Shown here: positions 7,362 to 7,787 of the stretch, piece after piece | Layout of the letters: every line of letters begins with the position of its first letter | Position numbering within the stretch: the first letter of the stretch is position 1 | Source: Fulvivirga lutea | GTDB lineage: Bacteria > Bacteroidota > Bacteroidia > Cytophagales > Cyclobacteriaceae | Reading direction: 5' to 3' | Length of the DNA stretch: 64,000 nt | Assembly: GCF_017068455.1 (NCBI RefSeq) | Contig: NZ_CP070608.1 | Location: forward strand, 482,501 to 546,500 | Made by a program: the position numbers and the translations under genes | The notes under the pieces: model-generated | What the model saw: the letters and a program-made list of their open reading frames with translations, nothing else | What the model was told of the DNA's origin: nothing | Database searches by the model: none

Positions 7362-7418
7362 TGGGATATACTGGATTCGAACCAGTGACCTCTGCCCTGT
7401 CAAGGCAGCGCTCCCAGC
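7362..7418 (-). pseudogene. tRNA-Val(GAC), 3' 57 nt of an interrupted gene
   Basis: On the minus strand this stretch begins GCTGGGAGC and holds the end of the D-arm, the whole anticodon arm (CTGCC-TTGACAG-GGCAG, anticodon GAC), variable loop, T-arm (ACTGG-TTCGAAT-CCAGT) and the acceptor strand ATATCCC plus discriminator A. The 5' 18 nt are missing here but lie 127 bp upstream at 7546-7563. Joining both gives a perfect 75-nt tRNA. No CCA is encoded. Confidence 0.8.
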
Positions 7419-7426
7419 CTGCAATG

Positions 7427-7501
7427 TAGGAAGTACCGGATTCGAACCGGTGACCCCCGCCCTGTCAAGGCGATGCTCTAAACCAACTGAGCTAACTTCC
7501 T
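7427..7501 (-). tRNA. tRNA-Val(GAC), complete, lying inside another tRNA-Val
   Basis: A 75-nt cloverleaf on the minus strand: acceptor AGGAAGT/ACTTCCT (7 pairs, discriminator A), D-arm GCTC/GAGC, anticodon arm TCGCC-TTGACAG-GGCGG with anticodon GAC, variable loop GGGTC and T-arm ACCGG-TTCGAAT-CCGGT. GAC reads valine GUC/GUU codons. CCA is not encoded. An A1-U72 first pair is unusual but the stem is fully paired; starting one base later would give a U-U mismatch. It sits in a 127-bp segment that interrupts the D-loop of a second tRNA-Val(GAC). Confidence 0.88.
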
Positions 7502-7525
7502 ATAAATTTCGGCTGGCAGGTAAAC

Positions 7526-7545
7526 CCTGTCTGCCGACAGGCAGG
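7526..7545. repeat. 20-bp hairpin element in the tRNA insertion
   Basis: CCTGTCTGCCGACAGGCAGG folds into an 8-bp stem (one G-T pair) with a CCGA loop. It directly borders the 5' fragment of the interrupted tRNA-Val. Short C/G-rich hairpins of this kind recur between genes in many Bacteroidota, so it may be a dispersed repeat; copies outside this window cannot be checked here. Confidence 0.5.
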
Positions 7546-7563
7546 CAACTGAGCTAATATCCC
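7546..7563 (-). pseudogene. tRNA-Val(GAC), 5' 18 nt of an interrupted gene
   Basis: On the minus strand GGGATATTAGCTCAGTTG is the acceptor strand, positions 8-9, the first D-stem strand and the start of the D-loop. GGGATAT pairs perfectly with ATATCCC at the end of the 3' fragment (7362-7418). The break falls after AGTTG in the D-loop. Confidence 0.75.
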
Positions 7564-7625: not shown

Positions 7626-7673
7626 GTGTTCGAACCTTAGGTCCACATCTATTTCTTGGTTCGATGTATTGTA

Positions 7674-7707: not shown

Positions 7708-7712
7708 GAATG

Positions 7713-7787
7713 TGGGCGCTGAGGGATTCGAACCCCCGACCCCCTCGGTGTAAACGAGGTGCTCTGAACCAACTGAGCTAAGCGCCC
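7713..7787 (-). tRNA. tRNA-Val(TAC)
   Basis: A canonical 75-nt cloverleaf on the minus strand: acceptor GGGCGCT/AGCGCCC with discriminator A, D-arm GCTC/GAGC, anticodon arm CCTCG-TTTACAC-CGAGG with anticodon TAC (reads GUA/GUG), T-arm GGGGG-TTCGAAT-CCCTC. CCA is not encoded. An intrinsic terminator follows directly. Confidence 0.95.

Follow-up and report, generated by a model that had tools for sequence, protein, structure and literature searches.

Nested tRNA-Val(GAC) genes in Fulvivirga lutea: the probable footprint of a mobile element dwelling in tRNA genes

Interrupted and split tRNAs are well known from archaea, where an insert lies within the tRNA gene, sometimes in the D-loop, and is spliced. 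The locus described here, in which one tRNA-Val(GAC) of Fulvivirga lutea encloses another, departs from the archaeal cases in that its insert carries a further tRNA and nothing points to splicing. The presence of a GIY-YIG homing enzyme beside tRNAs is already known from phages: SegB is encoded in the tRNA clusters of T-even phages, has been suggested to cleave within tRNA-containing sequence, and belongs to a tRNA-segB segment that undergoes tandem amplification (PMC13096335). The element proposed below is like SegB in the adjacency of nuclease and tRNA genes and in its tandem amplification, but SegB is phage-borne and the passages of that account considered here name no duplication of half tRNAs with loop palindromes, whereas the nucleases considered here are bare domains of about 80 amino acids in cellular genomes; the two are set apart by description, not by sequence. 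Among REP elements, GTAG repeats have an IS200/IS605-type tyrosine transposase (RAYT) as their partner, and CGTC repeats seem to be without one (PMC3733652). REP elements share with the present case short palindromes spread across many genomes, possibly as non-autonomous units with a partner enzyme, and differ from it in that the palindromes here occupy tRNA loops and have a GIY-YIG nuclease gene as neighbour. No description of an element combining half a tRNA with a loop palindrome was found among the matches listed for the open-access literature of PMC, which is weak evidence of absence as most subscription papers lie outside that scope, and a mobile element of this kind on bacterial tRNA genes is seemingly undescribed.

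The window, a stretch of 64,000 nucleotides, is part of a genome represented by one 4.14-Mb contig. On its minus strand an outer tRNA-Val(GAC) extends from 7563 to 7362 around an intact tRNA-Val(GAC) (Table 1), and the order of outer start, intact gene and outer end given in a preliminary description is confirmed. The outer gene holds two inserts, both imperfect palindromes, one of 20 bp following nucleotide 18 and the other following nucleotide 23, the latter with arms CCAGCC (7516-7511) and GGCTGG, between which lie a spacer of 9 nt, then the inner tRNA, then CATTGCA; the structural position of its left arm matches that of most insertions in the pattern-selected loci discussed below. It had been proposed that the first 18 and the last 57 nucleotides join without loss or gain, a join that is off by 5 nt and has been dropped, because the intact relatives L254 and L257, from two other genera of the family, carry a GTTTA that here sits between the inserts. 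The GCTGG at 7418-7414, read earlier as part of the D-loop, belongs to the insert, and its restoration of a 75-nt length is a coincidence.

Table 1. Components of the nested tRNA-Val(GAC) locus and its neighbour, in window coordinates.
Feature	Position	Strand	Basis or remark
Outer tRNA-Val(GAC), nt 1-18	7546..7563	-	Identical to intact gene L254; sequence shared by L257
First D-loop insert, 20-bp imperfect palindrome CCTGCCTGTCGGCAGACAGG	7526..7545	-	Occurs three times exactly in the genome, once within a nested tRNA-Arg (D-loop)
Outer tRNA, nt 19-23, GTTTA, between the two inserts	7521..7525	-	Comparison with L254
Second palindrome, left arm CCTGCCAGCC, an insertion that separates the D-loop from the GAGC strand of the D stem	7511..7520	-	Comparison with L254
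9-nt spacer 5' of the inner tRNA	7502..7510	-	Piece-by-piece comparison
Inner intact tRNA-Val(GAC)	7427..7501	-	ARAGORN and Rfam RF00005, 65.4 bits
CATTGCA and right arm of the second palindrome (GGCTGG, 7419-7414)	7414..7426	-	Comparison; pairs with CCAGCC in the RNA fold
Outer tRNA-Val(GAC), nt 24-75	7362..7413	-	52/52 identical to L254 and L257
Adjoining tRNA-Val(TAC), locus context	7712..7787	-	Also beside tRNA-Val(GAC) in G005 and G010

The piece-by-piece check of the outer gene was made against L254. As both L254 and L257 carry outer nucleotides 1-18, GTTTA and nucleotides 24-75 as one uninterrupted sequence, the outer gene is complete; it equals the genes of the genomes G318 and G329, its stems pair perfectly, and its sequence is without decay. 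The preliminary description had suggested seeking an uninterrupted GGGATAT...ATATCCC gene at this locus in relatives; such genes exist, but at other loci. Its reading of the outer copy as a pseudogene made by insertion is supported, in that a complete gene has been broken by inserts and similar broken pieces lie beside intact tRNAs in other bacteria. In the predicted RNA fold of the region (z -4.17) the inner cloverleaf is surrounded by the acceptor, anticodon and T stems of the outer tRNA, whose D stem does not form, but two tRNAs with palindromes are expected to fold well regardless. At gathering score the Rfam scan of the window returned tRNA alone, with no group I intron match in the insert. 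By eye, neither the GTAG nor the CGTC tag of REP elements lies beside the palindromes at 7545-7526 and C1:3262195, and the open reading frames around the window tRNA include none resembling an integrase and no GIY-YIG nuclease gene. Downstream of the tRNA-Val(TAC), between two terminator-like hairpins, GGTTCGAA on the minus strand (7629-7636) is a possible T-loop remnant, and at the corresponding place in G010 (L016) there are about three tandem 3' pieces of tRNA-Val(TAC).

The two nested genes belong to distinguishable lineages. Identity between inner and outer tRNA extends to 62 of 75 positions, the two differing by paired changes, and among 78 genomes of the same family searched with the inner tRNA, 60 of which matched with intact genes from other genera among the matches, its nearest relative was in G319 (72/75). 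Given an undecayed outer gene, 13 differences in 75 positions can hardly reflect slow change of the inner copy beside the outer one, and the absence of decay together with the paired nature of the changes suggests, on sequence comparison, that the inner gene most likely came from elsewhere. It is the sole intact tRNA-Val(GAC) found in the F. lutea genome, the whole-locus search having given no second one elsewhere, which answers the question of gene number that the preliminary description had raised. Within the genus, ARAGORN applied to those matches that were fetched as loci found a single tRNA-Val(GAC) per genome in 14 of the 15 and no copy in G013, and the acceptor stems vary; in G005 and G010 the flanking genes of the window locus are kept and one tRNA-Val(GAC) stands at the site.

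A second nested gene occurs in the same genome. Two of the three exact copies of the 20-bp palindrome lie in tRNA D-loops, the copy at C1:3262195 being in that of a tRNA-Arg(TCG), and copies of the palindrome are also found outside tRNAs. That the same 20-mer recurs in another nested tRNA, again in its D-loop, indicates that the window arrangement is more than chance. The outer tRNA-Arg(TCG) (C1:3262173-3262413) carries the palindrome after nucleotide 22, in the D-loop, and after nucleotide 57, in the T-loop, a second insert, whose palindrome-like ends flank an intact tRNA-Arg(TCG). Its pieces, too, make one complete gene without overlap or gap, identical at 72 of 74 positions to the plain gene of G005, to which the inner tRNA-Arg is identical at 69 of 74. 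The flanks of the Arg site align with those of G005, G010, G013 and G007, each of which has a single plain tRNA-Arg. Common to the window and the Arg locus is a tRNA piece with a loop palindrome adjoining an intact tRNA of the same kind. One-sided pieces also adjoin tRNA-Lys and tRNA-Met: in the F. lutea genome a 17-nt 3' piece lies 90 nt after tRNA-Lys (L052) and a 19-nt piece 57 nt before tRNA-Met (L060), each beside apparent inverted repeats.

Related structures are widespread in other bacteria. Genome contigs were scanned for the D-arm TAGYTCARYTG followed by 0-6 bases and CCTGCCTGNCGGCAG, and the 100 stretches listed came, by record title, from Bacteroidota, Patescibacteria, Omnitrophota, WOR-3 and others, many of them metagenome-assembled genomes. 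At 72 of the 92 sites in the 80 loci fetched there is an intact same-strand tRNA within 2 kb downstream; 17 of the remaining 20 are no more than 700 nt from where the fetched stretch ends. Of the 72 sites, 32 have less than 100 nt between the palindrome and the intact tRNA, 36 have 100-400 nt, and 37 have an open reading frame of at least 60 amino acids there. Insertion falls after tRNA base 22 in 32 of 56 cases and after base 21 in 8, within the range of seven positions that the pattern permitted. The palindrome sequences differ from genome to genome, and in some genomes there are tandem copies or arrays of several units. At site 555 of L113 (minus strand) the 3' part equals tRNA-Ile(TAT) over 53 nt and the 5' acceptor strand does not, so that the halves joined across the D-loop palindrome look chimeric, and near 4457 of L115 (minus strand) a tRNA-Arg piece has palindromes in both its D-loop and its anticodon loop. 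The notion that the palindromes aim at hairpin loops generally was not supported and has been set aside. In a test of 72 palindrome sites, flanks pairing over at least 6 bases were found at 2 of 69 tRNA-like sites against a shuffled mean of 24%, and at none of the 3 outside that class, which by eye are tRNA pieces too.

All 27 of the in-between proteins that were scanned match the GIY-YIG domain of Pfam (PF01541), and 12 also match T5orf172, a GIY-YIG-like domain. Loci with a nuclease of this group include ones in Thermoflavifilum thermophilum (L111) and Flavobacterium tiangeerense (L124). They are bare domains of about 80 amino acids encoded on the strand of the tRNA, and their alignment has 11 invariant columns. 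By sequence their nearest relatives of solved structure are UPF0213 and SLX1 proteins (PDB 1ywl, 1zg2 and 7cq2; E 3.3e-12, 4.9e-12 and 5.2e-6), which are not known as tRNA-linked mobile genes. A PHROGs search with one of the proteins returned no family, and of two searched against NCBIfam one had no match and the other a single match below the cut-off. Three phage records have weak matches to one of the proteins, and two IMG/VR loci were matched; in one of these, L271, on a contig filed as viral, the GIY-YIG match ends 8 nt before a tRNA-Arg(ACG). The reading frames of L167 and L169 appear to continue at their ends into sequence resembling a palindrome, with PAGRQ and CRQAG as examples of the resulting tails.

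A palindrome-independent test of the association is provided by a search with the protein itself, over the 15 genomes of the genus and 247 genomes drawn from the phylum. Some match was found in all 15 of the former and, at E 0.001 and with other GIY-YIG proteins included, in 165 of the latter. Fifty loci were fetched, and 35 of them score at least 85 bits. In 32 of the 35 a tRNA on the same strand lies no more than 250 nt away, and in none does one lie that near on the opposite strand; the count of 32 becomes 30 if one array copy is taken per locus, other copies in L218 and L238 lying 33 and 22 nt from a tRNA. The others are L236, which has no tRNA, and L193 and L206, which by eye have tRNA-Met-like pieces upstream. 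Below 85 bits a tRNA lies within 250 nt in 5 of 15 loci. Some of the nuclease genes follow a 5' piece and precede the intact tRNA; others come downstream of the intact tRNA, in some loci ahead of a 3' piece. Insertions in tRNA pieces number 28, spread over 17 of the 50 loci: the T-loop has 9, the D-loop 8, the anticodon loop 3 and other positions 8. In a simple gapless test, 14 of the 28 reach a self-complementarity of 60% or more.

On the basis of these observations the window locus is probably a nuclease-free footprint of a mobile element that dwells in tRNA genes, in which the outer gene would be dead and the inner gene, alone expressed, would serve the cell. A full element, of the form seen elsewhere, would consist of a half tRNA, often with a loop palindrome, a same-strand GIY-YIG nuclease gene and an intact tRNA of the same kind. 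The putative nuclease would cut intact tRNA genes, perhaps near the anticodon, as the end points of many pieces suggest by eye, and repair of the cut from an element-bearing copy, as in homing, would then copy the element in, yielding half tRNA, nuclease gene and whole tRNA. The palindromes of the spare half may, speculatively, shield it from cutting or from recombination with the intact copy. In the window, a complete tRNA-Val(GAC) would have taken palindromes into its D-loop through the machinery of such an element, and a tRNA-Val(GAC) of another lineage, of outside origin, would have come to lie between the arms of the second. No autonomous copy of the element is seen in the F. lutea genome, as its five GIY-YIG matches are all weak (best E 3.6e-15) and none lies within 40 kb of any of the 33 tRNAs listed, with 150 of 300 candidates scored. 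Further observations run counter to the element reading: palindromes vary between genomes, only half of the 28 insertions in the protein-selected loci pass the self-complementarity test, pattern-selected pieces often equal their intact tRNA (43 of 61 comparable pieces are identical in all of the 18-24 nt compared, 11 of the 72 without an exact D-arm match being left out), unlike the window, and the motif of D-loop plus palindrome, TCARYTGRNTACCYGCC, is rare in the phylum sample, occurring in 7 of 247 genomes against 4 of 247 for a control motif. Six of those seven have a GIY-YIG match (E at or below 1e-20 in four, 1.2e-16 in one and 3.6e-15 in F. lutea) and one has none, an association by genome too thin for a claim when 165 of the 247 have some such match anyway.

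Several other histories can be imagined for the locus. The most serious is that of two separate one-sided events, a 5' piece arising upstream and a 3' piece downstream of a resident tRNA that was later replaced or converted, which we regard as unlikely, if not negligibly so. One-sided pieces are the common form in related loci. Of 155 tRNAs examined, 15 are flanked by pieces on both sides, and these belong to 13 of the 130 loci (some of the pieces being short, weak matches, E up to 0.01); in G250 (L218) one tRNA-Leu follows a 5' piece and is itself followed by an array of 3' pieces. Yet independent duplications would be expected to overlap, and the outer pieces of the Val and Arg loci each sum to exactly one gene. 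The scarcity of both-sided pieces argues against the quite improbable idea that the outer tRNA is still made, its halves assembling or being joined once RNase P and RNase Z have released the inner tRNA, because at most loci there would be nothing to assemble. The undecayed sequence and perfect stems of the outer gene are consistent with such a product, and the CCAGCC and GGCTGG arms could tie its halves together, but the locus already has an intact tRNA of that kind, and the outer gene carries two separate D-loop inserts. We know of no bacterial enzyme for joining such halves.

Ordinary tRNA duplication followed by decay, with REP-like repeats entering dead copies by chance and GIY-YIG proteins irrelevant to this genome, would fit the lack of a visible tRNA-linked nuclease gene in F. 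lutea and the palindrome copies that lie outside tRNAs there. It is nonetheless a very doubtful account in view of the concentration of exact palindrome copies in tRNA D-loops, the preference for insertion after bases 22 and 21 within the seven positions allowed, and the tRNA neighbours recovered by the protein-based search, which is free of pattern bias. An error of assembly is the least credible explanation of all, given a genome in one contig, two loci that share one logic, and similar structures in many other assemblies.

The reading of the window as an element footprint bears on a more general proposal, to which we assign an even chance: that there is a widespread class of selfish elements on tRNA genes, in Bacteroidota, Patescibacteria, Omnitrophota and others, in which a co-oriented bare GIY-YIG nuclease spreads by duplicating half of a tRNA while leaving one intact, palindromes occupy the loops of the spare half, and nested forms swap the tRNA of the host for a foreign one. 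If this is true, a parasite that has its own means of sparing the essential gene sits on many tRNA genes across several bacterial phyla, and a target is supplied for a large set of small GIY-YIG proteins that are at present recognised chiefly by their domain. The fragments of tRNAs found in bacterial genomes, and the tRNAs there that seem to be interrupted, would be accounted for, foreign copies could replace tRNA genes by way of the element, and such swapping of tRNAs could help to explain the divergence of tRNA-Val(GAC) acceptor stems between related species.
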